Of a stretch of 64,000 bases of DNA, positions 45,271-62,389 are shown one piece after another. Position numbers and translations under genes: made by a program. The notes below the pieces were generated by a model. The model was not told the DNA's origin and did not search any database. It saw only the letters and a list, made by a program, of their open reading frames with translations. The first letter of the stretch is position 1. Each line of letters opens with the position of its first letter. This DNA is from an uncultured Hyphomicrobiales bacterium. Its GTDB lineage: Bacteria; Pseudomonadota; Alphaproteobacteria; Rhizobiales; Ancalomicrobiaceae. The stretch spans positions 1-64,000 of the forward strand of contig CAIYYN010000062.1 in assembly GCA_903930435.1 (NCBI GenBank). Reading direction: 5' to 3'.

Positions 45271-46647
45271 TCACAGTGCGGGGAGAATGATCTCGCACCG
45301 GAGGCCGCCGATTGGCGAATCCGCGAGCTGGAATTTTCCGCCATATAACGTGGCAAGTTCTGTCACGATGGACAGGCCAAGACCTGTTCCCGGGACCGTC
45401 TCATCGAGCCGTTGACCACGTTTGACTGCTTCGACGCGCTTTTCTGGCGAGAGTCCGGGTCCATCATCGTCGACGTAAATCGTCATGAATCGTCGCTCGT
45501 CGCCTCTTGGTGCCGGCTCCAGCTGGGCTGTTACCATGACGCGACCGCGACACCATTTGCAGCCATTGTCCATGAGATTGCCGAGAATTTCTTCCAGATC
45601 CTGCTTCTCGCCACGAAAGCGGATTGCCTCCGGCAAATCAACATCCACGACCACGCCGCGACTTTCGTTTATCTTGCGCATGGCCCTTGCCAGCCGCTCG
45701 ACAACGGGCGACACATCCGTGACCACACCAATGACACGTCTCTGGGCAGCCATTCGAGCACGCTCGAGATGGTGATCGATATATTCGCGCATCAGGCCTG
45801 ATTGCTCCGCGATCCGACGCGCAAAGGGCACGTCGGCAGCACGGGCTTCGTTGGTGATGACCGCGAGCGGTGTCTTCAGCGCATGGGCAAGATTGCCCAC
45901 ATGGGTTCTGGCGCGATTCATTGTCTCGCCATTGGCCTCGATCAGCGCATTCATCTCATCGGCAAGCGGCTGAAGCTCCAGCGGAAAATTGCCTTCGAGG
46001 CGTTCACTCTCGCCCGCCCGGATTGCAAGCAAGGATTCCCGGATCCGTTCGATCGGCGAGAGACCAATCCGGACCTGAAAATAGGTTGTCATGACGAGGC
46101 CCACCCCGACCAGCGCCAGGATCAGGGCCGTCCGCGTGGAAAATGTGGTGATGTCATCGTTGAGTTCGCCTGCATTACCGGCCACGGCGAGCTTGTAGGA
46201 CATCGTGTCATCAAAGTTGATATCGCGTTCCAGAACGCGCAGTTCCTGATGATCTGGACCGTTTAAATAGGCCTTGACGACCCGGTCTGCGCCAGGTTGC
46301 GCTCCGAAATCTGTTGGAAACGCGAGGACTTCGCCGGTCAGCGATTTTGAGGAGCCCACGACACGCCCATCGTCCGCCCGTCTGAGGACCCAGTACCAGC
46401 CTGAAAGCGGCAGCTGGAACCTTGGCTCGCCTGCATTGGAAGGCTCATGGAACCCGGGCCCCAGGTCGGTTTGCTCCGCCATCGCCCCGATCAGGGTCTT
46501 CATGTAAACTTCCAGCCGTTCGTCAAAGGATCGTTCCACCGACCCACGATAGACGGCAATCAACACCGACCCGGCGGCGGCCAATGACAGCGCACTCCAG
46601 ATCGCTGCCAAGATAAAAAGCCGAAGCGCAAGCGAGCTAGCCTGCAT
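45271..46647 (-). CDS. PhoQ-type sensor histidine kinase
   Basis: The 458-residue kinase has two membrane helices (LRLFILAAIWSALSLAAAGSV and ALILALVGVGLVMTTYFQVRIG) around a periplasmic sensor. HAMP, HisKA with His255 in NLAHALKTPLAVITNEAR, and HATPase (VDDDGPGLSPE, GTGLGLSIV) follow. Its start overlaps the response regulator stop by 11 bases, so the pair is co-translated. With the pepSY gene upstream it resembles PhoPQ-like systems sensing the envelope; the signal is unknown. Confidence 0.9.
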   Translation of the reverse strand: MQASSLALRLFILAAIWSALSLAAAGSVLIAVYRGSVERSFDERLEVYMKTLIGAMAEQTDLGPGFHEPSNAGEPRFQLPLSGWYWVLRRADDGRVVGSSKSLTGEVLAFPTDFGAQPGADRVVKAYLNGPDHQELRVLERDINFDDTMSYKLAVAGNAGELNDDITTFSTRTALILALVGVGLVMTTYFQVRIGLSPIERIRESLLAIRAGESERLEGNFPLELQPLADEMNALIEANGETMNRARTHVGNLAHALKTPLAVITNEARAADVPFARRIAEQSGLMREYIDHHLERARMAAQRRVIGVVTDVSPVVERLARAMRKINESRGVVVDVDLPEAIRFRGEKQDLEEILGNLMDNGCKWCRGRVMVTAQLEPAPRGDERRFMTIYVDDDGPGLSPEKRVEAVKRGQRLDETVPGTGLGLSIVTELATLYGGKFQLADSPIGGLRCEIILPAL

Positions 46648-47308
46648 CGCTCGTCATGCCTACGGTGTAGCCGAGCCCTCGAATGGTCTGGATGATATCA
46701 ACACCCAGTTTGCGCCGAACGCGCCCGACAAACACTTCGATCGTATTGGAATCCCGATCAAAATCCTGATCATACAAATGTTCGACCAATTCGGTTCGCG
46801 ATACCACGCGACCGATGTGATGCATCAGGTAGGAAATCAGGCGCAGTTCGTGCGATGTCAGTTTCACGAGCGTGCCGTGGACCGTGACCCGACCGGCCTT
46901 GGTGTCGAGGCGAACCGGACCGCATTCAATTTCGTTCGATGCGTGTCCAGCCGAACGACGGACAAGCGCCCGAAGGCGTGCCAGTACTTCTTCCATGTGG
47001 AACGGTTTTGCCACGTAGTCGTCGGCACCCGCGTCGATACCGGCGACCTTATCGCTCCAGCGATCTCGGGCAGTCAGCAACAGCACTGGCATTTTCCGCC
47101 CGTCCTTGCGCCATTGCTCCAGCACTGACAGCCCATCCATTTTCGGCAGGCCAATATCGAGCACGACGGCATCATACGGCTCTGTATCGCCGAGGAAATG
47201 GCCTTCCTCGCCGTCACGCGCGCTGTCCACGGCGTAGCCTGCATCCTTGAGAGCCTCGACAAGCTGATTGTTCAGGTTCGGATCATCTTCAACGACAAGG
47301 AGACGCAA
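46637..47308 (-). CDS. OmpR/PhoP-family response regulator
   Basis: This 223-residue regulator has the receiver domain with EDD (7-9) and Asp51 (VVLDIGLP), and a winged-helix domain (TSHELRLISYLMHHIGRVVSRTEL...NTIEVFVGRVRRKLG). The TTG at 47308 is chosen: CGGGAG lies eight bases upstream and the protein then starts MRLLVVEDDP with standard numbering. An ATG at 47332 and a TTG at 47371 that overlaps the pepSY stop (TTGA) are alternatives. It is the middle gene of the pepSY-regulator-kinase operon. Confidence 0.9.
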   Translation of the reverse strand: MRLLVVEDDPNLNNQLVEALKDAGYAVDSARDGEEGHFLGDTEPYDAVVLDIGLPKMDGLSVLEQWRKDGRKMPVLLLTARDRWSDKVAGIDAGADDYVAKPFHMEEVLARLRALVRRSAGHASNEIECGPVRLDTKAGRVTVHGTLVKLTSHELRLISYLMHHIGRVVSRTELVEHLYDQDFDRDSNTIEVFVGRVRRKLGVDIIQTIRGLGYTVGMTSDAG

Positions 47309-47367
47309 GGGCTTAACTCCCGGAGCTATCATGGATTTTAACCACTGCTGGACGCAGCGATCTTGAG

Positions 47368-47682
47368 TCAATGATCACCGTATACCAATTCGCCCGAACG
47401 CGCATCGACTGTCACGCGTCGGACCGTTCCCTCGGAGGTCAATATGGTCACACGATAGGCCAGCTTGCCGTCACGGTGGCACAGATCGGCCTTTACGATG
47501 TCGCCCCGCAGTTTATGGCTGATATCGGCGAGCCGCAACGCCTGGCCAGCGACCAAAGCTTCCTGGATTCCTGCAGCGCCGAGGCAGGCGCTGTCGGCAA
47601 GTGCAGGCGCAGAAAAAGCGGCTGGTGCCTGCGCCAACAGGAACAGCGTCACGACGGAACTGAGAAGGCAGATCTGTTTCAT
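47368..47682 (-). CDS. Exported PepSY-domain protein
   Basis: The 104-residue protein has a signal peptide (MKQICLLSSVVTLFLLAQAP) and a single PepSY-like domain ending in YRVTILTSEGTVRRVTVDARSGELV. Small PepSY proteins are often found beside PhoPQ-type systems and may modulate the kinase or envelope proteases. It is first in the operon with the downstream regulator and kinase genes. Confidence 0.85.
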   Translation of the reverse strand: MKQICLLSSVVTLFLLAQAPAAFSAPALADSACLGAAGIQEALVAGQALRLADISHKLRGDIVKADLCHRDGKLAYRVTILTSEGTVRRVTVDARSGELVYGDH

Positions 47683-47748: not shown

Positions 47749-48027
47749 CTAATTTTGACGCGCGTCGGCCCCATGTGTTCTGAACTCATTTGGGCAAAGC
47801 GCTTTGTAACTGGCGTTATGGCTCCGGATTTGGCGGATCGTCGCATCCGTATCATGCGATGACCAGGCGATAGGACGAAAGCCTGCACAGGCCAATTCCG
47901 CGACGTCTCCCGGCGCGGCTGAGCTATCAATCACGCTTGAACCCGTCATCGTCGCGCAGGCGTTCAGGGTGCATATCGATATCAAGCTCAACGCGATCAC
48001 GTGCGGCCTGAGATCTCCGGATCGCAT
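47749..48027 (-). CDS. Rz1-like outer-membrane lipoprotein (o-spanin candidate)
   Basis: The 92-residue product has a lipoprotein signal ending in the lipobox LNAC, then a short mature part with the phage-associated pattern AWSSHDTDATIRQIRSHN. Its ATG has an excellent AGGAGGT site seven bases upstream, lying inside the preceding gene. The first 101 bases overlap that gene in another frame, the arrangement seen for lambda Rz/Rz1. An o-spanin would link to the inner-membrane partner and fuse the membranes at the last step of lysis. The assignment rests on position, overlap and lipobox, not on clear homology. Confidence 0.65.
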   Translation of the reverse strand: MRSGDLRPHVIALSLISICTLNACATMTGSSVIDSSAAPGDVAELACAGFRPIAWSSHDTDATIRQIRSHNASYKALCPNEFRTHGADARQN

Positions 48028-48157
48028 CGTTTACCTCCTGAAGTTTCTGGCTCCAAGCCGCCTTGGTCGCAAGGTTGATCAACTGGCGTTCATGCAACCA
48101 GTTCGTGAGGGTGGCGGCAATCGCCGCCACCGACTGCAAGATCCCGAGCACGCTCAT
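47927..48157 (-). CDS. Rz-like inner-membrane protein (i-spanin candidate)
   Basis: This 76-residue protein has an N-terminal hydrophobic segment (VLGILQSVAAIAATLTNWL) and a charged helical tail (KLQEVNDAIRRSQAARDRVELDID), fitting a small i-spanin. It begins three bases after the holin-like gene, and its 3' part contains the whole start region of the Rz1-like gene. It is shorter than lambda Rz (about 153 residues). It could also be a second small membrane protein of the holin type. Confidence 0.6.
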   Translation of the reverse strand: MSVLGILQSVAAIAATLTNWLHERQLINLATKAAWSQKLQEVNDAIRRSQAARDRVELDIDMHPERLRDDDGFKRD

Positions 48158-48160
48158 CTT

Positions 48161-48388
48161 TCAGGCAATCTTGTGGGTGGCTTTGATGCGCCCCCAGATG
48201 GCGAAGATGCTGCCGCCAATCACGATCAACTGATCCGCAATGTCGTAGAGCTGGCCGAAGAGATCGAGTGCCTGAGCCTGATCGGATGGCGAAATGGTAT
48301 AGCCAATCACGCTGGACAGGCTGGCGACCAGCGATAGGCCGGCACCCCACGCGGTTTTGGAAAATAAGATGCTCTTTGTCTGATCCAT
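48161..48388 (-). CDS. Holin-like small membrane protein
   Basis: The 75-residue protein has two hydrophobic segments (WGAGLSLVASLSSVIGYTI and LIVIGGSIFAIWGRIKA) and a basic C-terminus (KATHKIA). The SKTxWG start and the xxGRIKATxxI end are a pattern I know from phage-encoded holin-like proteins. The ATG at 48388 is preferred because GGAG lies six bases upstream; an ATG at 48400 lacks this. It stands between the RlpA-like and Rz-like genes as expected for a lysis cassette. Confidence 0.75.
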   Translation of the reverse strand: MDQTKSILFSKTAWGAGLSLVASLSSVIGYTISPSDQAQALDLFGQLYDIADQLIVIGGSIFAIWGRIKATHKIA

Positions 48389-48410: not shown

Positions 48411-48806
48411 TCAATCGCGGCAAGAGGCGCAGGGCATTGCCGGAACGAAGGGCTCGACCGTGACGCGGGCGAGACCAGAGATCCCGAGGAGCCGGGCGGC
48501 TCCACGGGAAAGATCGAGACAACGGCCCCGCACATAGGGTCCGCGATCCGCAATGACGGTCTGAAGGGTTCGCAAGCTCGCCAGATCAGTGACCCTGATC
48601 CGGGTTCCCAACGGCAGGGTGCGATGGGCCGCAAGATTGTCGTCCGGGCGATGCCTGCGGCCGTCGGCAAGAGGTCGATTGAACCCCTCCCAATAGACCG
48701 AGGCAACGCATGTCTCCGACGCGACGGCCTGCCCGGCGCACGCGAGCACGCCGATGAAAAAGAAGATGACTTTGATCAGTGGAAAGCCTCGCAACGCCTG
48801 AGACAA
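48411..48806 (-). CDS. Secreted RlpA-like double-psi beta-barrel protein (candidate lysis enzyme)
   Basis: The 131-residue protein has a signal sequence (LIKVIFFFIGVLACAGQAVA) and an RlpA-type double-psi barrel: CVASVYW, LAAHRTLPLGTRIRVTDL and IADRGPYVRGRCLDLSRGAA. His61 and Asp87 fall at the positions I recall as important in Pseudomonas RlpA, a lytic transglycosylase that cuts peptide-free glycan. The usual Gly-Glu before them is Gly-Arg here. No muramidase or amidase lies nearby, so this may be the endolysin, exported by its own signal. The start is uncertain (TTG at 48806 or a codon closer to the signal). Confidence 0.7.
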   Translation of the reverse strand: MSQALRGFPLIKVIFFFIGVLACAGQAVASETCVASVYWEGFNRPLADGRRHRPDDNLAAHRTLPLGTRIRVTDLASLRTLQTVIADRGPYVRGRCLDLSRGAARLLGISGLARVTVEPFVPAMPCASCRD

Positions 48807-48883: not shown

Positions 48884-50371
48884 TCAGGCAGTCAGGGCCG
48901 GAATGACGGTATTCATGACCTTGTCGGCCATGCGGCGCGCGATGTAATCGGTGCCGGTCACGCCGGGGATCGCATAGGACGGATGCAGGCTATCGACGCT
49001 GTTGATGTAAAGCGACGTATTGGTCGACGAGATCCACGCACCATCCGTATCGGCAACCTGCGGGAAGAACCAGGATTTCCCGTCGTTCCATGTGGCAAAA
49101 GCTGACGCAAGGGCAGTTTCTTGCGTGGGATAGCCGGTCGGGGACGTGATGCTGGCAGAAATGCCGAAAATCACGATTGGCACATTGGGATAGAGCGCGC
49201 GCGCATTCTGCCACGCCGTCAATGCGTTCGCTGTTACACTGGCCGCCGGCGCCGATGCATCATTCGGGGACCCGGAAAAGACAATGATATCCGGCGTGAT
49301 GACCGACGCGTCGCGCAGCCGCATCGGATCCGCCCAGTTGTAATTGCTGGCCGGGCTGCCTGCACTGACATAGCCAGTGCCGGACACCGACGCCGTGTAA
49401 CACTCCCAGCCCATGCGGATGCACAACTGGTGAAACAGGTTATTGGGACCAAAGGCCGCAGCCGCGCCGCCATTGCCGAAACTGTCACTGATGATCAGGG
49501 CCCTGGGCCGGGATGATGGAACCCAGACACGCGAGCCGTTATAGAGATAAATGCCGGAGATCGTTGTGCCACCGGGCAATTCAACCCGGATTTTATGTGC
49601 GCCCGCATTGGCCAGTGTCAACGATATGTAGTTGGTGCCACTAACGGCCATAGCTGTTGCGCCGGCCGACAGATAGGCGTCATCAACTGCAATGCGAAAC
49701 GCGTTCAACGAGGACGTGGTTGTCGAAAAAATCTGCAGGATCAGGCTTGCGGCGGCGGTCGTGAAATTGGCCCCGTCAAAATTTGTTTCAAAAATGACAG
49801 GAACATAATTGTTGTTCTGTGCAGTGGGGGGAGTTGCAGCATTGCCGGCTGTTCCCATCACAAGTGTTGCGGTGCCGCCGCTTCCCCCCATCACACCGCC
49901 AATCGGCTTGATGGCGCGCGGGAAAAACCCGACCGAAATACCTGTTGCCGTTGCCGTCGCCGCCTTGGACAAGGTGATGGTATTCGTCGTCGTGTTAACC
50001 GCCGTTACGTAGGTCCCCGGAGGGATGTTGGCCGGATAGCCCTGGCCGGACGGGGACCGGTCGACGACAGGCATGCCAACCGACAGGGCGCTGGGGGCCG
50101 CGCCCGACACATAGGTGTAATTCGTCAGGACGTTGCTGCCTGCCGTCGTGTTGAACGTGTGGGAGGCCACAAAACCGCCGAGCGCCGGGATCAGGTTGGT
50201 GAAACCGGTCAGGTTCGGGGCGGTCGACGAAACGACCACCGTTGCTGCACCCGCGTTGACGGGATTGGCCAGAAGGTTCGAGGCCAGCGCCGCAACGGCG
50301 GCTGCGTACAAGAGGGATTTCTGCCTGGGTGCAAGTGTCGAAGTCGACATCGGGGCAAAATTGCTGGACAT
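48884..50371 (-). CDS. SGNH/GDSL-hydrolase-domain virion protein
   Basis: The 495-residue protein has a hydrophobic N-terminal segment, a beta-rich region with many Thr/Ala/Gly residues to about 270, and an SGNH hydrolase domain from VWVPSSRPRALIISDSFGNGG. The nucleophile Ser lies in ISDSFGNG, the Asn block in VFSGSPND, and the catalytic Asp-His pair in DSLHPSY near the end. Such esterases on phages deacetylate surface polysaccharides. It is probably a virion-borne receptor-processing enzyme. The ATG at 50371 is supported by GAGGTG upstream; a TTG at 50389 would overlap the preceding gene. Confidence 0.75.
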   Translation of the reverse strand: MSSNFAPMSTSTLAPRQKSLLYAAAVAALASNLLANPVNAGAATVVVSSTAPNLTGFTNLIPALGGFVASHTFNTTAGSNVLTNYTYVSGAAPSALSVGMPVVDRSPSGQGYPANIPPGTYVTAVNTTTNTITLSKAATATATGISVGFFPRAIKPIGGVMGGSGGTATLVMGTAGNAATPPTAQNNNYVPVIFETNFDGANFTTAAASLILQIFSTTTSSLNAFRIAVDDAYLSAGATAMAVSGTNYISLTLANAGAHKIRVELPGGTTISGIYLYNGSRVWVPSSRPRALIISDSFGNGGAAAAFGPNNLFHQLCIRMGWECYTASVSGTGYVSAGSPASNYNWADPMRLRDASVITPDIIVFSGSPNDASAPAASVTANALTAWQNARALYPNVPIVIFGISASITSPTGYPTQETALASAFATWNDGKSWFFPQVADTDGAWISSTNTSLYINSVDSLHPSYAIPGVTGTDYIARRMADKVMNTVIPALTA

Positions 50372-50381
50372 CTCATTCACC

Positions 50382-51875
50382 TCAATCAATCATCACAGAC
50401 ACTTGGGCAGACGCTGACGGCGCATAGATCTGCAGCCGCCCCTTGAATGTCGTGGACGACCACGAGCCACCTTGAGCCCCGACAGCAGCTCCACCAGCGA
50501 GCGCGAATACCGATGCATTGTTTGGGGCCGTCCCGCTCGCCGCCGTGCCGTCATCGCGGACAATGACGACCTGGGCACCGCTCGTGTTCTCGATATCGAC
50601 GTTGTTGCGGGTAGCCGATGCGGGCACTGTCGCGATCAGAACGTAGCTGGCATATGGCCCGGAGGCTGCGAAGTTTGCGCCGACGTTTGGCAGCGTCGGC
50701 TTATTGGCAGAATAATCAGTGCCAACGCTGCCCGTTGCCGAAACCGAACCAATGGCATTGGTACCAGCGGGCAACGCCTGTGCCGGGTCAAGTCCGACAG
50801 TCACAAGCGACACATCCGGTGCCGATGACACGACGCCTGTTACCAGCAACGATGCCCCGGAGCCGGTCAATGCCGATACCAGCCGCACGCGAAACTGCGG
50901 GAAACCCGCGACAGGCACCTGAAAGCCCTTGGAATAATTTGCCGACAGGTTGACTGACCCGACGGTCGTATAGTCGATGATCGTGGGCGCCTTGATGGGC
51001 AGCCAGGTCGCGCCGTCGAAGACCTCGAAGATGACGTTCCCGCCGGTCAAACTGGCGTTCGCCACCAGGGTCACGATCACGGTGTCCATGCCGCTGGTGG
51101 CAAAAGTCGCTGCCGTGTTGGCGGTTGTTGCCGTGGTCCAGGTTGCCGACACGGGTGGCTGAAACCCGTCAAACATCGGCAGCGGATTGTTTGACGCAAC
51201 TGCCGCCCCGCCGACCTGAATGCCGACGTTCCAGCCACCCGATTGGGTCGCAGCGAAGCCGGTATTGGTGATCGACCCGATGGCATTGGTGCCAGCGGGC
51301 AAGGGCGGCAGGGCAGTCAACGAAACAGGCTGGGTTGCCTGCCAGAAGGCGCCCGTCACGGCGAGTGGATTTGACAGTTTGGCCCAGATGGCCGAGAGCC
51401 AGCCTGTGATACCAACGCCTCCGGCAGGCAGCGTCGCGCCCGTGATTGGAGCGCCGTTGGTTTCCGTTACGCCCTGCACGGCAGGCAGGTTGGATATTGA
51501 AACTGACCCACTGACGGGCTGAACCGCCGGCTGGTTTTCCACGATGACGCGGAGATTCCGATTAAGGTCCGTGGAAAGCGGCACCATTGCGCCTTCCGTT
51601 GCAACGGGAGGCGCAGCATTTGCCTGTGCGTCCGTTGAGACAGTACCAACCGAAATCGACGCACCGTTCAGGCTGACCGGCAAGGGATTGCTGGCCGAAA
51701 CGGCCGCACCGGCCACCGTAGGTGCAACCGGTACCGGGTTCGCTGTCGCCACATCGGCGTTTGCAACCCGCAGGTTCGCCGCCGTGGACGTCCGTTGCAA
51801 CCCTGAGCCCATATCGAAGGACTCAGAGGTAAACAGCGCGCCGTTGCCGTCGCGCAAGGTGGTATTATTCGCCAT
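50382..51875 (-). CDS. Beta-rich virion-type protein of unknown function
   Basis: The 497-residue protein is low in charge and rich in Ala, Gly, Ser, Thr and Val, as in fibres and spikes. Two matching segments, LPAGTNAIGSITNTG and LPAGTNAIGSVSATG, sit about 200 residues apart, and SNPLPV/NNPLPM motifs recur, suggesting internally repeated shaft units. No catalytic motif is seen. It lies between the 41-residue ORF and the SGNH gene. Role as spike or fibre subunit is inferred from composition and position. Confidence 0.65.
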   Translation of the reverse strand: MANNTTLRDGNGALFTSESFDMGSGLQRTSTAANLRVANADVATANPVPVAPTVAGAAVSASNPLPVSLNGASISVGTVSTDAQANAAPPVATEGAMVPLSTDLNRNLRVIVENQPAVQPVSGSVSISNLPAVQGVTETNGAPITGATLPAGGVGITGWLSAIWAKLSNPLAVTGAFWQATQPVSLTALPPLPAGTNAIGSITNTGFAATQSGGWNVGIQVGGAAVASNNPLPMFDGFQPPVSATWTTATTANTAATFATSGMDTVIVTLVANASLTGGNVIFEVFDGATWLPIKAPTIIDYTTVGSVNLSANYSKGFQVPVAGFPQFRVRLVSALTGSGASLLVTGVVSSAPDVSLVTVGLDPAQALPAGTNAIGSVSATGSVGTDYSANKPTLPNVGANFAASGPYASYVLIATVPASATRNNVDIENTSGAQVVIVRDDGTAASGTAPNNASVFALAGGAAVGAQGGSWSSTTFKGRLQIYAPSASAQVSVMID

Positions 51876-52015: not shown

Positions 52016-52351
52016 TCAGGCCCTCAGCAGCAGGATCTGAACACCGGCTGCAAACAGGTTGACTGACCCCGTCGCCCAGATACGCCGAACCGAAATGGCC
52101 TCGTAGGTGCTCGCACCTGGTGGAATCGTGATCGGGACCGAAATCGTGTCGGTTGCTGCGGCCAAGGGCGTTACGGTCAGTGTCACTGCAGAAGCGGTCG
52201 CTGGTACATAGACGCGCAACGCCTTTGCGTAGGTCGGCAGATCCGTCGTGTCGGAGACCATCGCTGCTGTCAGCGGAATTGCATCGACCGAGGGACCTGA
52301 TCGGTCAGGGGCAACGGTTGCGAAATTGTCCGATGCTGGTGTGTAGGGCAT
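52016..52351 (-). CDS. Head-spike-base-like protein (Rcc01079/GhsA type)
   Basis: The 111-residue protein shows the pattern AIPLTAAMVSDTTDLPTYAKALRVYVPATA...ISVRRIWATGSVNLFAAG, which fits the spike-base family named after R. capsulatus Rcc01079 (DT-DLP-ALRVYV...RI-ATG). In R. capsulatus this protein is part of head spikes that bind the recipient's capsule, and it is encoded away from the main cluster. Here it lies inside it. The family match is by recognition, not by a search. Confidence 0.6.
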   Translation of the reverse strand: MPYTPASDNFATVAPDRSGPSVDAIPLTAAMVSDTTDLPTYAKALRVYVPATASAVTLTVTPLAAATDTISVPITIPPGASTYEAISVRRIWATGSVNLFAAGVQILLLRA

Positions 52352-52409: not shown

Positions 52410-53729
52410 CTATTCGAACTCCCAGACCCACACGAGTCCGTTCGCTCCTGAGCCGCCCGCACGCCCCGTTGCATTCGAGGCAACTGTTCCGCCTGCGCCG
52501 CCACTGCCCGGCGACGCGCCCGTGTTTCCGGGAGCATTGCCGATTCCGCCCAAACCGCCGCCGCCAAAAAATCCAGAGCCACCATTGCCCGAGATGACGT
52601 TATTGGCATCGAAGCGCATGGCCGGTGCCCCGGGAGAGCCGCTGAACGCATAGTCTCCCTGTGAGGCACTACCGCCATTGCCACCCGTCACGGCAGTCGC
52701 GAAGGTTGCTGGCGTCATTGTTGGTCCGCCGTTGCCGCCGCCTGCGACAGCGAAGGTCCCGAACGAGGTCGCACCGCCATTGCCGCCGGGTCCGCCTGTC
52801 GAAACGCCACCTGCGCCGCCTGACCCGATCGTGACTGAAACTGCCGGGCTTGAGGTCACGTCCTGGAATTTGATTGCCAGACCGCCTGCGCCGCCGCCGC
52901 CACCCGCCCCGCTCGCACTTGCATTGCCAGCGATGCCACCGCCACCGCCACCGCCGCCTATGGCAAGGATCAGCGCCAGACGGACACCGGATGGCCGGGT
53001 CCATGTGCCCGACACCGAGAACCACGACATCGACTTCAAGCGCCCGCCGCCCAGCAATCCGCCAGGCTGCAAGGTCAATTGTCCCGTCGTGTTGTTGATG
53101 TTGATGGCTTCGGTCCAGTGATTGCCGTCCGGGGCGACCTTCAGGTGCAAATTGTCATCGCCGCACAGCCCGAATTCCGCCCGGCCCGAATAATTGGTCT
53201 GGAAGAGCCAGGACAGCGTGTTGGCCGTCGTTGACTTGTTGAGCGTCCCGCGCATGTCGCCGGTGCCGCCTTCGCTCAACGCCAGTGCGGTGATCAACAA
53301 CGTATTGAGTTTGGCAGACAGGGGATTGGCAGATGTCGCCGTGGTGCCCAGACCCAATAGCTGCACACCCTGAAGCGTCGACGCTAACATCCCGAATGCA
53401 TCGGCCCAGACTGTTCCCGTCCACACAAAGATGCGGCTTTGTGCCACCACCCAGACGAGCCAGCCGGTATCTGGTGGATAGAAATTCCAGACCCCCTGTT
53501 GCCAGGCCGCGATCTGGTTGGTTTTACCTGCCCAGGCTCCGGTTGCATTGGCGGCAACAATATAGGCGTCGCTGTCGTTGCTCGTTGCCGGCGGTGCGGC
53601 GAGGGTCTGAGACAGCACAGTCGCCTGCACAAGCTGGTCGAGCGCGAGGATCGCTTCATTATGAGTCACGTTCTTCTGTGCCTGCCCCGCATCAATCAGC
53701 GGCAGGTTCAACTTTGTCGTCGCTGTCAT
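52410..53729 (-). CDS. DUF2793 glycine-rich tail-fibre protein
   Basis: This 439-residue protein starts with the DUF2793 signature MTATTKLNLPLIDAGQAQKN, followed by HNEAILALDQLVQ, which marks phage or GTA fibres that sit on the tail. After about residue 250 it becomes a glycine-rich low-complexity domain (GGGGGGIAGNASASGAGGGG and similar runs), ending LVWVWEFE. Such domains form the distal, receptor-contacting part of fibres. It starts 27 bases after the g15 homologue. As I recall, a DUF2793 fibre also exists for the R. capsulatus GTA, at a separate locus. Confidence 0.85.
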   Translation of the reverse strand: MTATTKLNLPLIDAGQAQKNVTHNEAILALDQLVQATVLSQTLAAPPATSNDSDAYIVAANATGAWAGKTNQIAAWQQGVWNFYPPDTGWLVWVVAQSRIFVWTGTVWADAFGMLASTLQGVQLLGLGTTATSANPLSAKLNTLLITALALSEGGTGDMRGTLNKSTTANTLSWLFQTNYSGRAEFGLCGDDNLHLKVAPDGNHWTEAININNTTGQLTLQPGGLLGGGRLKSMSWFSVSGTWTRPSGVRLALILAIGGGGGGGGIAGNASASGAGGGGGAGGLAIKFQDVTSSPAVSVTIGSGGAGGVSTGGPGGNGGATSFGTFAVAGGGNGGPTMTPATFATAVTGGNGGSASQGDYAFSGSPGAPAMRFDANNVISGNGGSGFFGGGGLGGIGNAPGNTGASPGSGGAGGTVASNATGRAGGSGANGLVWVWEFE

Positions 53730-53756: not shown

Positions 53757-56700
53757 TCAGAGTTTGAGTGTCGCAGTGCGCCAGACGCCGGGGCCGATCG
53801 TGGCGCTGAGTTCGGCGATTTGAACCGAATAGCTTGATTGCAGGCTGCCAAAATCACTGATCTGGTTGACGGCCATATAGATGAAGCTCGGCGACGCCAC
53901 CGCCTGTGTTCGAACCACGACACCAGACTTGATTATATTGATCTGATACGCCTCGGATTGCTCGCCGAGTGGCACGTCTCCCGCTGTCCAGGCATCGGCA
54001 CCCGGCATGCGCGACCGGCGAATCCAGGTGAACGTCACGTCACCCGTGGTGGGATCGCGACAACCCCGAACGTCCGTCGGGCTCCACGGCCAGAGTCCGC
54101 GACCAACCGGCGTGAGCGCTACGTCAATAAAGGAGGATTGGGTATAGTCACCTTGCGCCGGTCCGATCTTGAGGGATATCGGCAGTCCGAGGTCGTTCTG
54201 GCTGATAGGGAGCGCAATCAATGATCCATCGAGCAGCACGAACGGGCTTCCGGCCGGGATCGGGGCATTCCACGCATCTTCCGAGCCGCCCTGCGCCCGC
54301 AACAGATCACTAAGCCGATAGGTATTGGATGCAGAGAGCGTGGCGGTTGCAAACTGGAACACTTCCCAAGTCCCGGCGCTGTTCTGGACGGCAGCAAAAT
54401 TCGCGCCCGCGAGCAATTGCGCTTCGGTCACCGAACTGAGCTGGCCGGACTGAATGAGAACACTGATGACAGCCGCCCGGTCAAACACGCTGACCGGCCC
54501 TGCAACGACAGGCGTCAGCGTCGTGCCAAGTACAGAACGCTGGTCGTGGGTTGCAATCAGCGAATAAGACCCGCCGCCAGCAGCCTCCCGCCAGATGGCA
54601 ACCGAACCGGGCCACGGATTGGCATCCACTGCGACATAGGGCTGATAATAGGGGTCGGCATCACTCAAGTGGGCGATGTCGACGACATAAACGGTCGGCT
54701 TGCCATAGGTCGCCGCTGGCTTGACCGTCTGGGATTGGGTCGCGCCGGGCGCTGGAGCATAGAGCGCCGGATAGATTGATCGGCTTTCGATTGCTCGTGT
54801 TGATCCATCAGTGATCCGCGTGACCATGACGGTGCGTTCCTGGGAACCGACCGCAATTGTCAGGATATCGCCGGGTTCGATGGCGATCTGCTGCGGTGGC
54901 AGCGCGAAGTTTATCTGCTCGCGACCGATCCAGAGGTCGTGCAGCCATTGATCCGCGATGCCCAACGTCACATCCAGTGGCGCAACGATCGGCAAATCTG
55001 CCTTGTTGTGCGCAGAACTGAACCCGGCAAGCCGCGCGGAATAAACGGTCGAGCGGCGATAATTGCGCAGCACGTCCGAGACCGTCACCGACACCTGACG
55101 CGGCAATTCGGTTTCCTGCGTTCGCTTCAATTCCAGGAGGGGCGATTTTCCGGGATCGACCAGATCATCATAGTCGAACGAGGCGACCGGCTGTCGTGCC
55201 CGACCGGCGAAGCGGATCGAGACACCGGTATCAATCGCGTCGATCTGCCACGCGCTTAGCAGCGGTTCGATGGCGCTTCTGGCGGACATGTTGCTGTCGA
55301 TCAGGTACCCGTCGACGTGCCCGCCGATAGCCACCGTCTCGATCCCGGTGAACCCGTAATCCGCCAGGATCGCCCGGATCAGCCCATCGACACTGGTGCC
55401 ACCAAGCCGCCCGGTCAGCCAATGGCCGCAATTCCAGTTGGCAGCATCCATCCAGACCGACGTGAAGGACGGAAACGCCGGAAACGGACGTGCGTCCCAG
55501 GTCCACAGGTGGATCGTGGCCGGATCGATCATCGGCGCGCCTGAAGATGTCGTCAGGCTTGCGGCGGAAAGATGATCGGGATCACTCATATCCCAGGCCG
55601 AGAGCACGGCTTCGAGAAACCGGCGCTGCATCAGGTCATCGCGGGCACCCGACGAGAAATACGGCAACCCCGCTTCAGCGGAATAAGCATCTGGAAACTT
55701 GTTCGGCTGGTTGGCGCCGAGATCAACCGCCGGGCAGCCGGTTTCGGTGAACCAGATCGGCTTGGATTTAGGTACCCAGGCTGTCGGTGTCGTCGCTTGC
55801 ACCCCACCCGGCCGGTTGAAATGCTGTGATTGCCACCAGTTTGGAAAATCCTTGAACCGGAAAACCCATGGCTCGGAATAGGCGCCGTCCATTATGGGCG
55901 TTCGCACCTGATTGCTGCGATCACCGGGGCTCGCGTAATACCAGTCGTATCCCTCTCCCGCCAGAACGTTGGTTCTGAGATAGGTTGGATCTGAGGCTGA
56001 CGTTGAAATCGCGCCATCCTGATTGGCCTGATACCGCCAGTCGCTCAAGGGTGCGTAATTGTCGACTCCGATGAAATCGACATTCTGACTGGCCCAGAAC
56101 GGATCGAGGTGGAAGTAGACATCATTGCTTCCATCCTGCGGCTGATGGCCAAAATATTCCGACCAGTCCGCCCCGTAAGAGACCTTCGTCCCTGTTCCCA
56201 TGACGGATTTGACCTCGGCTGCTAGTTGCACGAGCGCACTGACGAAGGGATAGGTGCCGGGTCCTGATCGGACCGTCGTCAGCCCGCGCAGTTCCGAGCC
56301 GATCAGAAACGCGTCCACGCCGCCTGCCAGAACGGCGAGATTGGCATAGTGCAGGATAAACCGCCGAAAGCTCCACTCAGTGCCCGCATAGGCGACGGAT
56401 GTGCCAATCGCACTGAAATCCGTGAGCGCCGCTTTGCCGACAAACTGCGCGACCTGTGCCGCCGCCGCCGCTGTCTTGTCGACCGTACCTGCAACGCCTG
56501 CGGCAGGATTGCATGTGATCCGGCCACGCCAAGGAAACGCCGCCTGCGCCGGAGCGCCATAGGGATCGGGCAACGTGTTACCCGGCGGGATGTCCATCAT
56601 CAGGAACGGATAAAGCGTGACCTTCAGCCCGCGCTTGTTGATTTCCTGAATGGCCTGAACAACGCTGGCATCATCCGGTGTTCCGCCGAAGGCTGCGATC

Positions 56701-57683
56701 GCCGCAGATGGCGTCGTTTGACCATAGGTGAGCGGTGGCACCACGTAAGACACCTGCCGCGCCGTCCCGCGTGTCAGACCGCTGACTGACCAGAAGGCAC
56801 TGACGACGCGTGCATTGGCCTCGGCACGCGGCGCGATGGTGCAATTGCCGGCCCTGAGATCATCCCCGTACCAGGTCACGACCAGCGCGACGCGTTCGAT
56901 ATTTGGACAGATACCCTGCAGATCATCGAGCGCAGACAGGATATCGGTTGCCTGATAGAGCGCATGCCGGTTCTCAGACACGGTCGCGCCGTTGGTATCG
57001 ACAGAGGTATCGGCAACCGTCGAATAGCCGAATTCCGTCGACCCCGGGATCATCGTCACGGCCCGAACCCGCGCTTCAAGCGTATCAACGCAGCGGATGA
57101 CTTCGAAATTGAGCTGCGGAATGCGATTGCCATACTTGGTCAACGGCAGTCGCTCGAACACGACATAGGCCAGATCGCGATAGGCAGGCACGCCACCGGG
57201 CTGGACGGCGAGGATCAGCGGATCCTGCAACTGCGTTGCCGATCCGGTGTAAACCCGCATCGTGACAGTGGTCAGATCCAGTTCGACACCATCCGCCCAG
57301 ACGCGCGCGACACGATTGATCGGCCCAAGGCAAAGCCCGACCGCAAAATTGGCGTAATAATCATAGCTTGTCGTCGAGGGGCCGCCCTTGCCGCCTGAAT
57401 TGGATTTGACTGCATCTTCTTCATATTGCGTCGCCCAGATGATATCGCCTGAGACCCGGACCCGTCCGTAAACCTGTGCGATGGACGCACCTTCAGTCGA
57501 CGACATCACCGTCAGATCGGTCAGTCGCGGCCCCTTGGTGCGACTCGGCATCGTCGAGCGGATCAGTTCCTGGTCGATGATTGCACCAGCAAGTCCGCCA
57601 AGTGCGCGGCCTGCCATCGCCCCGATCGGGCCAAGAATAGACCCTGCGGCAGCGCCCGCAGCCGATAACAGAATGGTTGCCAA
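53757..57683 (-). CDS. GTA g15-like baseplate multidomain (host specificity) protein
   Basis: This 1308-residue protein matches GTA g15, the central tail-tip hub. The N-terminus (ATILLSAAGAAAGSILGPIG) has hydrophobic segments. A glycoside-hydrolase-like TIM barrel lies around residues 430-760 (FLIGSELRGLT; WFTETGCPAVDLGANQPNKF; SYGADWSEYFG). Phage-tail lysozyme/fibronectin-like domains make up the rest. The TTG start has AGGAGG eight bases upstream. It follows g14 after 27 bases. Confidence 0.92.
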   Translation of the reverse strand: MATILLSAAGAAAGSILGPIGAMAGRALGGLAGAIIDQELIRSTMPSRTKGPRLTDLTVMSSTEGASIAQVYGRVRVSGDIIWATQYEEDAVKSNSGGKGGPSTTSYDYYANFAVGLCLGPINRVARVWADGVELDLTTVTMRVYTGSATQLQDPLILAVQPGGVPAYRDLAYVVFERLPLTKYGNRIPQLNFEVIRCVDTLEARVRAVTMIPGSTEFGYSTVADTSVDTNGATVSENRHALYQATDILSALDDLQGICPNIERVALVVTWYGDDLRAGNCTIAPRAEANARVVSAFWSVSGLTRGTARQVSYVVPPLTYGQTTPSAAIAAFGGTPDDASVVQAIQEINKRGLKVTLYPFLMMDIPPGNTLPDPYGAPAQAAFPWRGRITCNPAAGVAGTVDKTAAAAAQVAQFVGKAALTDFSAIGTSVAYAGTEWSFRRFILHYANLAVLAGGVDAFLIGSELRGLTTVRSGPGTYPFVSALVQLAAEVKSVMGTGTKVSYGADWSEYFGHQPQDGSNDVYFHLDPFWASQNVDFIGVDNYAPLSDWRYQANQDGAISTSASDPTYLRTNVLAGEGYDWYYASPGDRSNQVRTPIMDGAYSEPWVFRFKDFPNWWQSQHFNRPGGVQATTPTAWVPKSKPIWFTETGCPAVDLGANQPNKFPDAYSAEAGLPYFSSGARDDLMQRRFLEAVLSAWDMSDPDHLSAASLTTSSGAPMIDPATIHLWTWDARPFPAFPSFTSVWMDAANWNCGHWLTGRLGGTSVDGLIRAILADYGFTGIETVAIGGHVDGYLIDSNMSARSAIEPLLSAWQIDAIDTGVSIRFAGRARQPVASFDYDDLVDPGKSPLLELKRTQETELPRQVSVTVSDVLRNYRRSTVYSARLAGFSSAHNKADLPIVAPLDVTLGIADQWLHDLWIGREQINFALPPQQIAIEPGDILTIAVGSQERTVMVTRITDGSTRAIESRSIYPALYAPAPGATQSQTVKPAATYGKPTVYVVDIAHLSDADPYYQPYVAVDANPWPGSVAIWREAAGGGSYSLIATHDQRSVLGTTLTPVVAGPVSVFDRAAVISVLIQSGQLSSVTEAQLLAGANFAAVQNSAGTWEVFQFATATLSASNTYRLSDLLRAQGGSEDAWNAPIPAGSPFVLLDGSLIALPISQNDLGLPISLKIGPAQGDYTQSSFIDVALTPVGRGLWPWSPTDVRGCRDPTTGDVTFTWIRRSRMPGADAWTAGDVPLGEQSEAYQINIIKSGVVVRTQAVASPSFIYMAVNQISDFGSLQSSYSVQIAELSATIGPGVWRTATLKL

Positions 57684-57710: not shown

Positions 57711-58172
57711 TCAGGGGAGAGTGTCGGGAAAGCGGAATGCAAAGGCGATCCGCCGGCTCCACCAGGGTCCGAGCGGACTTTCGACAACCGCAGTTCCGTC
57801 GTAAGCGTGGATGAAGGTCGTTGCAGTCGCCAGAATTCCGGCATGCTTGGCGGGCAGTGACTGTCGCCAGCGAAACAGCAGGACATCACCGGGTAGCGCC
57901 TGTTCGGGGACCACCTCGATCAGGTGCCTGCGACCGGCATGCGCCAGTGTCTCGATACCGCCGGCCTCAGCCCAATCCGGCGCATAGGGCGGCACCGGTT
58001 CTGTCTCTTTGCCGGAGAGTTCGCGCCAGACACCCCGAATGAGCCCCAGACAGTCGCAACCTACACCCTTCAGCGACGCCTGATGCCTGTAGGGCGTCCC
58101 GATCCAGCCGCGCGCCAGGTCGATCACGCGCTCCGCCATCGGTGTAGCAGTCAAGGGTTGTAATGCTGTCAT
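57711..58172 (-). CDS. GTA g14-like NlpC/P60 peptidase
   Basis: The 153-residue peptidase has the NlpC/P60 pattern with Cys41 in CDCLGLIRGVW and His110 in PAKHAGIL. It would cut peptidoglycan cross-links during DNA entry. The four-base overlap with g13 (ATGA) implies coupled translation. Confidence 0.92.
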   Translation of the reverse strand: MTALQPLTATPMAERVIDLARGWIGTPYRHQASLKGVGCDCLGLIRGVWRELSGKETEPVPPYAPDWAEAGGIETLAHAGRRHLIEVVPEQALPGDVLLFRWRQSLPAKHAGILATATTFIHAYDGTAVVESPLGPWWSRRIAFAFRFPDTLP

Positions 58173-59065
58173 GACGTCACCAGTGCAGTGCCATCATTGG
58201 GCTGGGCCACAAGTCCTGGATTGGACAGCAGGTAATCCGACCCCGGAATATGCGGAAACCCGCGAAAGTTGATCGCATTGTTGAACCGCTGGGCGCAGGT
58301 ATCGATCAGCTTGTCACAGCCGGCGGTGACCGTGAATGTATCATTGGCGAGGATCGGATTTGGCGCGGGTTGCCAGAATTCCAGAGTGGCTCCGGTCGCC
58401 GCAGCGGTATGCAGTTTCACTTCGACGGCAGAGCCGGGATTGGCTCCGCCTGTAAAAGTCAGCAGCCCGCGCGAAAACCAGCCTGCGACAAACCCTGACA
58501 GCCCCGATGCAACGACTTGCGTCGGGCTGTTTGCTGCGATGACGACGCCCGTCCCGTGCATAGTCGGTTGGGTCAGATCGATCCCGCAGCGATGGTCGCC
58601 GAAGTCGGCATCGCACAGGTGCTGGTAAATCCGGCCGCGCTCCTGCTCCAGCGCCGTCGCCAGTGATCGCACCTCGGCAACAAATGCCTGATCCTGCCGG
58701 GTTACCTCTCCGATCAGCCCCGAACGAACCTGCAGGAACTGCGTTGTGTCAGCCCAGTTGAACACGAACACGTCGATCGTTGCGCCATCATAGCGCCCGG
58801 CGGCGATATCAGCCTCCGTAATCGCAGCTGAGGCCAGCGCACCGGACACATCACCGCCCCCCGTTGACAGATCCGCGGAAGAAACGACCTGACTGGCCGT
58901 CAAACCCGTCGACGCGGCATAGGTCACGCCATCAATGGTCAGTGGCTGGTCATGGTCCGTGAATCCCAAGATCACGCCGTCACGCCGTGTCAGACGCCAG
59001 CAATTGGCAAGCGTCGTCGCCTGCCCGTTGAGATGGGCAGCAAAATCATCTGACAGCTGTTTCAT
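58169..59065 (-). CDS. GTA g13-like DUF2163 baseplate protein
   Basis: The 298-residue protein has the DUF2163 start (LNGQATTLANCWRLTRRDGVILGFTDHD in two parts) and the C-terminal C-x3-C and C-x4-C-type cysteines (YQHLCDADFGDHRCGID; GCDKLIDTCAQRFNN) that may hold an iron-sulfur cluster, as reported for R. capsulatus GTA. It overlaps g12 by four bases. Confidence 0.93.
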   Translation of the reverse strand: MKQLSDDFAAHLNGQATTLANCWRLTRRDGVILGFTDHDQPLTIDGVTYAASTGLTASQVVSSADLSTGGGDVSGALASAAITEADIAAGRYDGATIDVFVFNWADTTQFLQVRSGLIGEVTRQDQAFVAEVRSLATALEQERGRIYQHLCDADFGDHRCGIDLTQPTMHGTGVVIAANSPTQVVASGLSGFVAGWFSRGLLTFTGGANPGSAVEVKLHTAAATGATLEFWQPAPNPILANDTFTVTAGCDKLIDTCAQRFNNAINFRGFPHIPGSDYLLSNPGLVAQPNDGTALVTS

Positions 59066-59712
59066 GGACGGATCTCCAGCAACGGAATGGACGGGATGTG
59101 ACCCGCTGCAAACTGGGTGAGATCGACTTTCAGATCGTCGGTATCGAAGCGCACCGGCACATGGAACAGATAGCCCGCCGTGATCGCAGCACCTGCGGCG
59201 GGCACCGCAGTCGCGGCGAAGGTGACGAGCCCTGTCGTCGGATCGACAGAATAGTCAGTCCCGGCGGTCTTGACGGTGCCACCCACCGCGATCAGGACCG
59301 TTCCGGCAACTGGCTTCGAGATAGTCCGGGTCCAGGCATCGGCGGTCGATCCATAGACCTTGACCAGTTGAAACACGGTCGTCAGACCATCGCCGACGCC
59401 GATCGGCTGATCAAACGCAGACGGCGCAAGTCCGAATCTGCAGGATCGATCATCAAGCGGATCGCGGTAGCGAAAGCCCGTCAATCGTCCCCGGCACTCC
59501 TCGAAGAACGCCACGACCCCTGCCAGATCGGCAACGGACTGCACGCCGGAGCCCGCATCATAGGTTCGTCGGGAATCGATCCAGCGCGCATTGCGCAATT
59601 CGCTTCCCGAGCCGAGCGTCACAATCTCGGTCTTGCGCTGCGGGCCTCCGGTCGAGCCAAGCGCGACACTGATCGGGAAAACAACTTCCTGAAACGCAGT
59701 CGATATGGACAT
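59062..59712 (-). CDS. GTA g12-like DUF2460 distal tail protein
   Basis: This 216-residue protein fits DUF2460, with FRYRDPLDDRS as the conserved stretch and a C-terminus ending in PLLEIRP. It forms the ring at the distal end of the tail tube in GTA. Unusually, 225 bases separate it from g11 upstream. Confidence 0.92.
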   Translation of the reverse strand: MSISTAFQEVVFPISVALGSTGGPQRKTEIVTLGSGSELRNARWIDSRRTYDAGSGVQSVADLAGVVAFFEECRGRLTGFRYRDPLDDRSCRFGLAPSAFDQPIGVGDGLTTVFQLVKVYGSTADAWTRTISKPVAGTVLIAVGGTVKTAGTDYSVDPTTGLVTFAATAVPAAGAAITAGYLFHVPVRFDTDDLKVDLTQFAAGHIPSIPLLEIRP

Positions 59713-59937: not shown

Positions 59938-60561
59938 TTAGAGCCCGCGCCGTCCCCGTCCGACGGCGCGGGCCAACAGGCTCGTGATCTGCGTCTGAGA
60001 CTGGGCAAAGCCCTGAACATCCGGGGTCTGCACATTGAACGTCACATTGGTCATCGGTTGACCGCCGCCTGCGACGCCAAGCTTGCCATCGAGACCGCGT
60101 TTCAGCGGCATGATGGCTTCAGGACCAGCTTCGCCCATCAACCCGGTCGCACCACCCGACATCGGAAAATAGCTCGGACTGGAGACAACCCCGCCATCGG
60201 CAAAGGGTTGCACGCCGCCGTTCTGGAATATGCCACCAGCCCGAAACCCGAAGATGGACTTGAATAGCCCCGTTATTCCGGACGTCAGCCCGGTGGTCAC
60301 GCTCGACATCGCATCATTCAGGCCAGCGCCGACAGTTTGCGATATCGGGCTGAGTGCCTGCTTGAGTGCACTGTTCGAAATCGTCTTTCCGACATTCTGC
60401 AAAACCGTATCGAGGTTTTTGCCTTGCACGATGGCTTGCGTCAGTCCCGTCGTGAAAGCCTTGGAAAATGTCAAGGATTGATCATTCAGCTTATCCATCG
60501 AGGCGGACAGCTTATCAATCGTCTGCTGCATATCCTCATGGGAGTTCGAATGTGAACTCAT
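59938..60561 (-). CDS. GTA g11-like short tail tape measure protein
   Basis: This 207-residue protein is of the short GTA tape-measure size. A charged N-terminal helix is followed by the GF-rich stretch GLFKSIFGFRAGG, then GGVQPFADGGVVSSP and the typical ...GLMGEAGPEAIMPLKRG. Tape measure length sets tail length, so a very short tail is predicted. Confidence 0.9.
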   Translation of the reverse strand: MSSHSNSHEDMQQTIDKLSASMDKLNDQSLTFSKAFTTGLTQAIVQGKNLDTVLQNVGKTISNSALKQALSPISQTVGAGLNDAMSSVTTGLTSGITGLFKSIFGFRAGGIFQNGGVQPFADGGVVSSPSYFPMSGGATGLMGEAGPEAIMPLKRGLDGKLGVAGGGQPMTNVTFNVQTPDVQGFAQSQTQITSLLARAVGRGRRGL

Positions 60562-60564: not shown

Positions 60565-60798
60565 TCAACCTCCTGCATGATCTGGGAAAAGGGCTGCAAG
60601 GTCTGCGAAATCTTCGCGTCTTGGCGGAATTATCGCGTCGCCATGCGTCAGTCTCCGACGACCCCGCACCATGGCGGCAATCTCAATCGGGGTTGCCTGC
60701 CACATCGCGGATGGCGGCAGCCGCATTTCCCCGAGGCAAAAGGCAAGCACCTCCGCCCAGGGAAACGGACGCGGCTTTGTGACGGTGCCGGATTTCAG
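60565..60798 (-). CDS. GTA g10.1-like tail assembly chaperone
   Basis: The frame contains FPWAEVLAFCLGEMRLPPSAMWQATPIEIAAM, in pieces fitting the Rcc01693-type chaperone. No ATG or TTG exists upstream of the FPW motif. A CTG at 60798 overlaps the g10 stop as CTGA and would include the motif (77 residues). The only GTG, at 60750, starts inside the motif and lacks a properly spaced ribosome site. I therefore choose the CTG, by analogy to ATGA coupling. Confidence 0.65.
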   Translation of the reverse strand: MKSGTVTKPRPFPWAEVLAFCLGEMRLPPSAMWQATPIEIAAMVRGRRRLTHGDAIIPPRREDFADLAALFPDHAGG

Positions 60799-61169
60799 GC
60801 CGGAGAGACCAGTGGACCGATCTCTCCCGGCGTAGGGCGCGGCGTATCAGTACCTGCCTGTTCATCGCCGAACGTCACATGCAACAAGCGAGCCGCGATC
60901 CGGGCAAACCCGATCGCACCGCCATCGGCGCGCATTGTCGCAACCTCGTCATCGCGGACCGCCAGTCCAGCACCACGCAGACCAGCGCCGACGATCCTGA
61001 TCAGGTCGCGCGCCGACAGTCGCCCCTCCGTAAAACGTTCGCTGAGCGCGGCCAGATCCGATGCGCCGAAAGCGGATTCCAGTTCGGCCAATGCGCCGAG
61101 AGTGAGGCAGAGGATATGCGGCCTGCCGTCGATGATCGCATCGATTTCACCGCGTCGTGCGTTGGCCAT
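60795..61169 (-). CDS. GTA g10-like protein (GTA family)
   Basis: This 124-residue protein shows the GTA_gp10 pattern: NARRGEIDAIIDGRPHILCLTLGALAELESAFGASDL near the start, and ARLLHVTFGDEQAG. It is thought to act in tail assembly. It starts one base after the g9 stop. Confidence 0.9.
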   Translation of the reverse strand: MANARRGEIDAIIDGRPHILCLTLGALAELESAFGASDLAALSERFTEGRLSARDLIRIVGAGLRGAGLAVRDDEVATMRADGGAIGFARIAARLLHVTFGDEQAGTDTPRPTPGEIGPLVSPA

Positions 61170-61170: not shown

Positions 61171-61602
61171 TCAGCTCGTCGGTGTGTTGGTCATGGCGGT
61201 AAACGTAATCGCACCGGCGGATTCCAGCGCAATATCGAACGTAAGCTCGTTATTGTGATCGCCCGAATAGTCCAGCGACGTGATCTGGAATGGTCCGGTG
61301 ATGATCCCGGTCCCCGGCACAATGATCTGCCAGTTCAACGTCGTATTGTTGAAGAAGATCGTCTGGATCGTCGTATCACTGCCCGACGCCAAAAAGACAC
61401 CCGCGCCCGACACTGCGCATTTGCGGATACCGACGGCACCCAGCAATTCCTGCCACCGACCGGGACTGTCGGCATTGGTGGCGTCGACAGCGGGCGACGT
61501 CAGCGTGATCTTGCGACTGCGCAAGCCCGCAACAGTCGTGAATGTGCCTGCGCCGGTCGGATCGAGTTTCAGGAGCAGGGCTTTGCCTTGTTGGGCGGTC
61601 AC
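61171..61602 (-). CDS. GTA g9-like major tail protein
   Basis: This 143-residue protein is the tail tube subunit of TP901-1 type (MTAQQGKALLLKLD...TLTSPAVDATNADSPGRWQELL). The GTG at 61602 is chosen because AGGAG lies eight bases upstream; a GTG at 61611 has no ribosome site. A TATAAT on the minus strand at 61627-61632 lies just ahead but without a matching -35. Confidence 0.93.
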   Translation of the reverse strand: MTAQQGKALLLKLDPTGAGTFTTVAGLRSRKITLTSPAVDATNADSPGRWQELLGAVGIRKCAVSGAGVFLASGSDTTIQTIFFNNTTLNWQIIVPGTGIITGPFQITSLDYSGDHNNELTFDIALESAGAITFTAMTNTPTS

Positions 61603-61661
61603 GTAGGACACTCCTTGATTATATTGATTATAGTCTGAATGCAGAGCATGTCCTGCCCGGT

Positions 61662-62063
61662 TTATCCGGTGATGCTCTTTGGCTCGGTGATGGCAACGAA
61701 CTTCAAGGTCGTCTCCACCGCGATCCGATCCCTGACGACCCGGCTATCGCTGGTGTCGAGATAGAGGCGGATCACCAGATGGTCGGGCATCGTTGGCCTG
61801 GCATCGTCCAGCAGCGTGATCACCTGATCGGCGAGCGTCACGGCCTCGGTCTTTCCGCCTGCTTTCGACCAGACCCGGATGACGAAGCGATGCTCTTCGA
61901 TCATCGCGTTCAGACCGTCCTTGCGCCGGGTCGTGATCTCGTCCAGCGATATGAAGGGCACGGTGGCATTCCGTGGTGCGCCATCGTAGACAGGCGTCTT
62001 CGGCAGGCCCGCGACCAGAACTGCCTTGACCGCCGCCTGAAGCTCGAGAACCGCGCTTTTCAT
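61662..62063 (-). CDS. GTA g8-like tail terminator (DUF3168)
   Basis: The 133-residue protein fits DUF3168, with DGAPRNATVPFISLDEI and RLYLDTSDSRVVRD. It caps the head-proximal end of the tail tube. It overlaps g7 by four bases. Confidence 0.92.
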   Translation of the reverse strand: MKSAVLELQAAVKAVLVAGLPKTPVYDGAPRNATVPFISLDEITTRRKDGLNAMIEEHRFVIRVWSKAGGKTEAVTLADQVITLLDDARPTMPDHLVIRLYLDTSDSRVVRDRIAVETTLKFVAITEPKSITG

Positions 62064-62389
62064 CGCAATTCCTCCTCTGCCTCAAGGACGAGATAGCGCA
62101 TGTCACCGGTGGGATCCGAGGTGGTCGTGATGCGGAAGATCCGGCCGTTGTAGACGATCCGGTTGGAACTGGTGACATCAGCCCGATAGCGGATGGTGAA
62201 GCGCCAGCGCGCCACGCCGATGATGCGGCCATCGCTGTCGCGCTCGGTTGGCGACGTCTGCGCAAATCCGCCCCAGACCGTCGCAAGCGGTGTCCAGGTG
62301 AATTCGCCGTTTGAGCCGAGGCTCATGACGTCGATTTCGAGCCGACGATTGAGGAAGCCGATAGGGGAACGGTTGGTTGGCCAGTTCAT
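62060..62389 (-). CDS. GTA g7-like head-tail adaptor
   Basis: The 109-residue protein has the phage head-tail-joining pattern (LNRRLEIDVMS, VWGGFAQTSPTERDSDGRIIGV in part, FRITTTSDPTGDMRYLVLEAEE). It overlaps both neighbours by four bases, so g6-g7-g8 are translationally coupled. Confidence 0.92.
   Translation of the reverse strand: MNWPTNRSPIGFLNRRLEIDVMSLGSNGEFTWTPLATVWGGFAQTSPTERDSDGRIIGVARWRFTIRYRADVTSSNRIVYNGRIFRITTTSDPTGDMRYLVLEAEEELR

Follow-up and report, generated by a model that had tools for sequence, protein, structure and literature searches.

An RlpA-like gene at the enzyme position of the lysis cassette of a predicted RcGTA-type gene transfer agent

Gene transfer agents (GTAs) are domesticated phages that ferry host DNA. 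The window considered in the current analysis, a stretch of 64,000 nucleotides, encodes an element that, judged by its gene content, is a GTA of the RcGTA type (Table 1). The core genes g2 to g15 are found in order and the tape-measure protein is short. The genes for the protease, portal and large terminase lie beyond the window, past g5, and no integrase has been identified among the genes of the element that were scanned. Identification as an ordinary prophage has been rejected on the basis of the gene-by-gene match to RcGTA and the conserved locus. The RcGTA counterpart of g14 is known to be a tail peptidoglycan peptidase (PMC7296036).

Table 1. Features of the window around the RlpA-like gene and along the predicted GTA cluster
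Feature	Coordinates	Strand	Details
Sensor kinase, response regulator, PepSY-like gene (syntenic anchor)	45271..47682	(-)	next to the GTA lysis end in genomes across the order
Outer-spanin-like lipoprotein	47749..48027	(-)	92 aa; phrog_1275 'Rz-like spanin' 2.6e-11
Inner-spanin-like gene	47927..48157	(-)	76 aa, N-terminal hydrophobic segment; overlaps outer-spanin gene
Holin-like gene	48161..48388	(-)	75 aa, ATG 48388; kept in G070, G106, G210, G249, G250
RlpA-type single-domain (DPBB) lytic transglycosylase-like protein	48411..48806	(-)	131 aa; Pfam, phmmer, NCBIfam, AF2 model
SGNH/GDSL-like protein, probably particle fibre/accessory	48884..50389	(-)	501 aa; Lipase_GDSL_2 1.6e-5, below cut-off
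Protein of no family, probably fibre	50382..51875	(-)	497 aa
111-aa protein	52016..52351	(-)	same place in other GTAs of family
DUF2793 tail-fibre protein	52410..53729	(-)	profile match
GTA g15 (megatron/GTA_TIM)	53757..57683	(-)	1308 aa; RcGTA chain 6tba_8A matched over its full length, 1e-278
GTA g14, NlpC/P60 tail peptidoglycan peptidase	57711..58172	(-)	TIGR02219, 4.5e-60
GTA g13 hub protein	58169..59065	(-)	match to RcGTA chain 6tba_7A
GTA g12 (DUF2460)	59062..59712	(-)	profile match
GTA g11 short tape-measure protein	59938..60561	(-)	207 aa
GTA g10 (Phage_TAC_11, GTA-gp10)	60795..61169	(-)	profile match
GTA g9 major tail protein	61171..61611	(-)	
GTA g8, g7, g6 (tail completion, head completion, connector)	61662..63102	(-)	
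GTA g5 major capsid protein	63169..64000, on to contig position 64431	(-)	Rcc01687, 7e-78

GTA_TIM is present in all 15 genomes of the family and in 172 of the 249 genomes of the order sample. In most of the loci read, the PepSY gene, the response regulator (68-92% identical) and the kinase adjoin the GTA end, and this shared neighbourhood suggests that the GTA locus is old and has been vertically kept. A GTA lysis end has also been observed at this fixed locus across many families of the order (window positions 45271-58172; loci L081-L092 and L124-L163), with the gene order g15, DUF2793, lysis slot, PepSY, response regulator and kinase and a lytic enzyme that differs per lineage. One of the genomes of the same genus, G250, encodes a second, divergent GTA_TIM-bearing element (contig C73; L083-L084) whose g15 is 40% identical and which lies about 10 kb from an apparent host RlpA gene.

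The lysis cassette is situated between the tail-fibre genes and the PepSY-regulator-kinase block and begins with the RlpA-like gene, which is followed after 22 bp by the holin-like gene, a 76-aa gene and a lipoprotein gene. The holin- and spanin-like genes claimed for it in an earlier note on this DNA are borne out by the assignments of Table 1. The spanin genes overlap at 47927-48027, as is characteristic of the Rz-type, and the lipobox residue Cys24 of the outer-spanin-like lipoprotein is invariant. Conserved counterparts of the holin and of the lipoprotein occur in the genomes G070, G106, G210, G249 and G250, while the 76-aa gene has similarity matches in G210, G249 and G250 and a positional match in G070. 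The RlpA-like gene is itself encoded within the holin/spanin cassette, the place expected of an endolysin, and between g15 and the host genes no other recognised wall enzyme has been found. The previous statement that muramidases, amidases and endopeptidases are lacking is therefore valid for this interval but not for the element, which includes the g14 endopeptidase.

RlpA-type wall-cutting proteins are normally used in cell division. The reading frame considered here has 131 codons with a TTG start, and its product matches the Pfam family DPBB_1 'Lytic transglycolase' with an E-value of 2e-11 and 44.4 bits, above the curated cut-off of 28.8. The matches to the NCBIfam model rlpA (TIGR00413; 9e-16, 58.4 bits) and to PRK10672 (55.2 bits) fall under the respective cut-offs of 82.15 and 201, and no SPOR domain has been identified in the protein by Pfam scan, which places it outside the septal RlpA proteins as defined by these two models. 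A phmmer match (5e-16) is PA4485 (PDB 4avr), a single-domain member of the RlpA family described as 'hypothetical' in its PDB title. PA4485 is also the best structural match of the AlphaFold2 (AF2) model of the protein (pLDDT 88.4, from an alignment of 59 sequences), with a Z-score of 17.1, 1.1 A over 91 residues and 45% identity, in keeping with the RlpA-type barrel proposed before; the fold is the double-psi beta-barrel. The second-best structural match is an RlpA domain that forms part of the A-1(L) cyanophage baseplate hub (8kea). Taken from profiles and from the predicted model, the assignment to the RlpA family is far from chance.

The key residues of the protein are H61, D87, D98 and R50. 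D98, the counterpart of the catalytic D168 of P. aeruginosa RlpA, is conserved in 68 of 68 homologues, and in the same alignment D87 is invariant and H61 almost invariant. E. coli RlpA has a serine in the column of D98, which agrees with the report that it is inactive owing to a serine in place of the catalytic aspartate (PMC9712689). Where the family has Gly-Glu, the window protein has Gly-Arg (R50), and an altered activity had been proposed on this account. The substitution is real, but the proposal is weakened, since no more than 52 of 67 homologues have the Glu and it varies in the remaining 15, so that the change lies in the normal range for this site, and the catalytic aspartate is intact. 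The protein thus resembles the RlpA of P. aeruginosa and V. cholerae in the DPBB domain, the catalytic Asp, the conserved His, the DRGP motif and the export signal, and differs from them in being a single-domain protein without SPOR, in carrying Arg for the common Glu and in its location in a GTA lysis cassette.

The signal sequence noted before is supported by an N-terminal hydrophobic signal, a helix of residues 10-24 that lies ahead of the barrel. The sequence contains a possible signal peptidase I site (AVA-SE) as well as a lipobox-like VLAC, so that export in a soluble or in a lipid-anchored form is possible. No clear Shine-Dalgarno sequence is seen for the TTG start, and GAGG precedes an alternative in-frame CTG at 48779, from which the signal peptide would be shorter; the exact N-terminus is therefore unsure.

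The position before the holin has been compared across related GTAs. Three genomes of the same family (G070, G106 and G210) encode a TIGR02594/CHAP enzyme directly before the holin and share the holin and the outer spanin with the window cassette, while in two genomes of the same genus (G249 and G250), which have kept the holin and the spanins, the slot holds no enzyme. Outside the family, 39 GTA loci could be read, of which 21 have in the slot a CHAP enzyme (2), a CHAP-GH108 fusion (6), a GH108 enzyme (7) or a GH24 enzyme (6) and 18 have none of these; two M15 and two Hydrolase_2 members are also listed among the slot families. The occupants vary across lineages and some slots are empty, which suggests an enzyme position with a changing occupant. 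As the slot is empty in G249, G250 and several other GTAs, the cassette does not require an enzyme there. The lysis ends of the related genomes (TIGR02594/CHAP, GH108, GH24 BgtA-like) carry a conventional endolysin, and not RlpA, at the position that RlpA occupies in the window. The search of 50 GTA downstream regions yielded no RlpA, and its consideration as a common GTA enzyme has accordingly been rejected. Close orthologues of the protein are absent from 249 genomes of the order and 385 of the class, and IMG/VR and genome_contigs yielded distant relatives only.

Some individual loci are of interest in this respect. Enzymes with two domains, CHAP + GH108, occupy the slot a short distance after g15 (L128 42-1370, L139 282-1613, L140 261-1619, L144 8703-10088, L153 8707-10017 and L157 483-1880). 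A holin, in some cases with a spanin, but no recognised slot enzyme is seen in L081, L082, L131, L136, L142 and L159, which include both genomes of the same genus. Two short contigs of G070 (C30 and C31; L165 and L166) encode two more TIGR02594-holin-spanin cassettes akin to that of the GTA.

A conventional endolysin elsewhere in the element had been named as evidence against RlpA in the place of an endolysin. The search of the own genome for GH108, GH24 and TIGR02594 enzymes was negative; the PF05838 search was positive in a control genome known to have this family and negative in the own genome. One Amidase_2 is encoded, as in each relative tested, and it looks like a housekeeping gene.

In a tree of 126 RlpA domains the window protein falls in a group of 11 members (support 0.83) comprising short RlpAs of phages and of rhizobial-type genomes. 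The phage members of the group are situated in lysis regions with an M15 peptidase, an amidase, a PG-binding lysozyme-like or an Rv2525c-like enzyme, often accompanied by genes for a lipoprotein and a TM-coiled-coil protein. The short RlpAs of alphaproteobacterial phages (Bradyrhizobium phage ppBdUSDA122-1; IMG/VR L185, L192 and L220) are similar to the window protein in clade, size and location in lysis regions, but have an M15, amidase or other endolysin within about 2 kb, whereas none is recognised at the window locus. A separate prophage-like region of G106 has an SGNH-motif gene, an RlpA gene (50% identical) and an endolysin gene (phrog_181, 5e-53) in this order. A phage lysis region is the probable source of the RlpA-like gene, to judge by this tree, in which the clade support is modest.

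An endolysin directly borders RlpA in 10 of 65 other viral contigs, as compared with 1.7% at random positions of the same contigs; the count within the source clade (6 of 7) is high by construction, the queries having been drawn from it. The short RlpAs directly beside an endolysin belong to diverse phages in IMG/VR (L190, L196, L197, L199, L200, L204, L242, L243, L244 and L257). A PHROG scan of the immediate neighbours of viral RlpAs revealed chiefly head, tail and replication genes, and the pairing emerged only in a wider, enzyme-directed search. An RlpA of G190 (L168 2962-4618) has a gpV-like gene on one side and a gp25/gpW baseplate gene on the other. By its gene neighbourhoods RlpA appears as a recurrent companion of phage endolysins and at times as a part of the baseplate. 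The location of phage RlpAs near an ordinary endolysin suggests an accessory role, and no described function of the recurrent pairing was found in the literature searched.

GTA release in R. capsulatus is known to depend on a holin and endolysin (rcc00556/rcc00555) encoded apart from the cluster (PMC6209664), and in Caulobacter on LypABC, with no holin or endolysin (PMC13236601); diverse routes of release are therefore to be expected. The window GTA is of the same type as RcGTA and likewise has a predicted holin-based release module, but its lysis genes are attached to the cluster, with RlpA at the enzyme position. The interpretation given in the earlier note is weakened in this regard, as the endolysin of such an element could lie at another locus, as it does in R. 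capsulatus. Nothing relevant on RlpA with a holin or endolysin, or with GTAs, was found in the literature searched. Each part of the cassette is of a known kind; RlpA at the enzyme position of a GTA cassette is unmatched in the other genomes surveyed and in the literature searched.

With somewhat more confidence than doubt, we consider the protein to be a Sec-exported single-domain RlpA-type lytic transglycosylase of an RcGTA-type release module, derived from a phage and placed where relatives have a CHAP, GH108 or GH24 enzyme. The analysis establishes the family, fold and key residues of the protein, its position, the conservation of the cassette and the enzymes of relatives; from this we infer its activity, timing, partner and role in release. 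The protein would be exported during GTA production; the holin would then depolarise the inner membrane, upon which RlpA would cleave the glycan strands or assist in their cleavage; next, the membranes would be fused by the spanin pair and particles would escape. RlpA is reported to cleave only glycan denuded of peptides (PMC9712689), and since it is restricted to strands free of stem peptides, the window protein would most likely depend on an amidase of the host or on a second hydrolase from another locus. In V. cholerae, RlpA that lacks SPOR retains its lytic transglycosylase functions (PMC8820737), which indicates that the catalytic domain can work without SPOR. Family and fold, D98, the 22-bp spacing to the holin, the slot enzymes of relatives, the negative searches of the own genome, the kinship with phage lysis regions and the V. 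cholerae precedent all favour this explanation. It is weakened by the empty slots, the denuded-glycan substrate, the want of close orthologues, the modest clade support and the RlpAs of baseplate regions and hubs.

The same evidence bears on other explanations. That the protein is the sole and sufficient endolysin, the only release enzyme acting on intact peptidoglycan, is doubtful: it is the only recognised wall-active protein of the slot, relatives have a true endolysin at the same place and GH108, GH24 and TIGR02594 are not found in the genome, but the substrate of known RlpA, the endolysins encoded near RlpA in phage relatives, the empty slot in the same genus and the restriction of the own-genome search to GH108, GH24, TIGR02594 and Amidase_2 all speak against it. 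The placement of RlpA at the position of an endolysin, as proposed in the earlier note, is hence supported by the enzyme slot of relatives, and qualified by the empty slots and the phage pairing, while the strong claim of a sole endolysin is possible but rather unlikely. A passenger or auxiliary wall-remodelling gene that came with the fibre genes and is dispensable for release, the lysis enzyme lying elsewhere as in R. capsulatus, is also rather unlikely; the tight spacing to the holin and the location exactly at the enzyme position are difficult to reconcile with it, although RcGTA has its holin and endolysin outside the main cluster (PMC6209664, PMC8601537), the slots of G249 and G250 are empty and the prophage-like region of G106 shows the SGNH-RlpA-endolysin order.

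A particle-associated lysin for entry, similar to the RlpA domains of phage baseplates, is brought to mind by the cyanophage hub and by the RlpA between baseplate genes in G190. This appears very improbable for a stand-alone protein with an N-terminal signal segment that is encoded beside a holin, in an element whose particle already has the g14 peptidase. A decaying release module, in which the RlpA gene would have no current role, would account for the empty slots of the same genus and the lack of a close orthologue; it is considered very unlikely, as the GTA core genes, the holin and the spanins are intact reading frames and the catalytic residues are kept.

The route by which GTA particles leave their host is under active study. 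The present comparison indicates that in many GTAs of the order a fixed locus holds a lysis end of their own whose enzyme is exchangeable, and that in one of them RlpA is found there. If RlpA acts in the proposed release module, the particles of the window GTA may exit by a different wall-cutter than usual.
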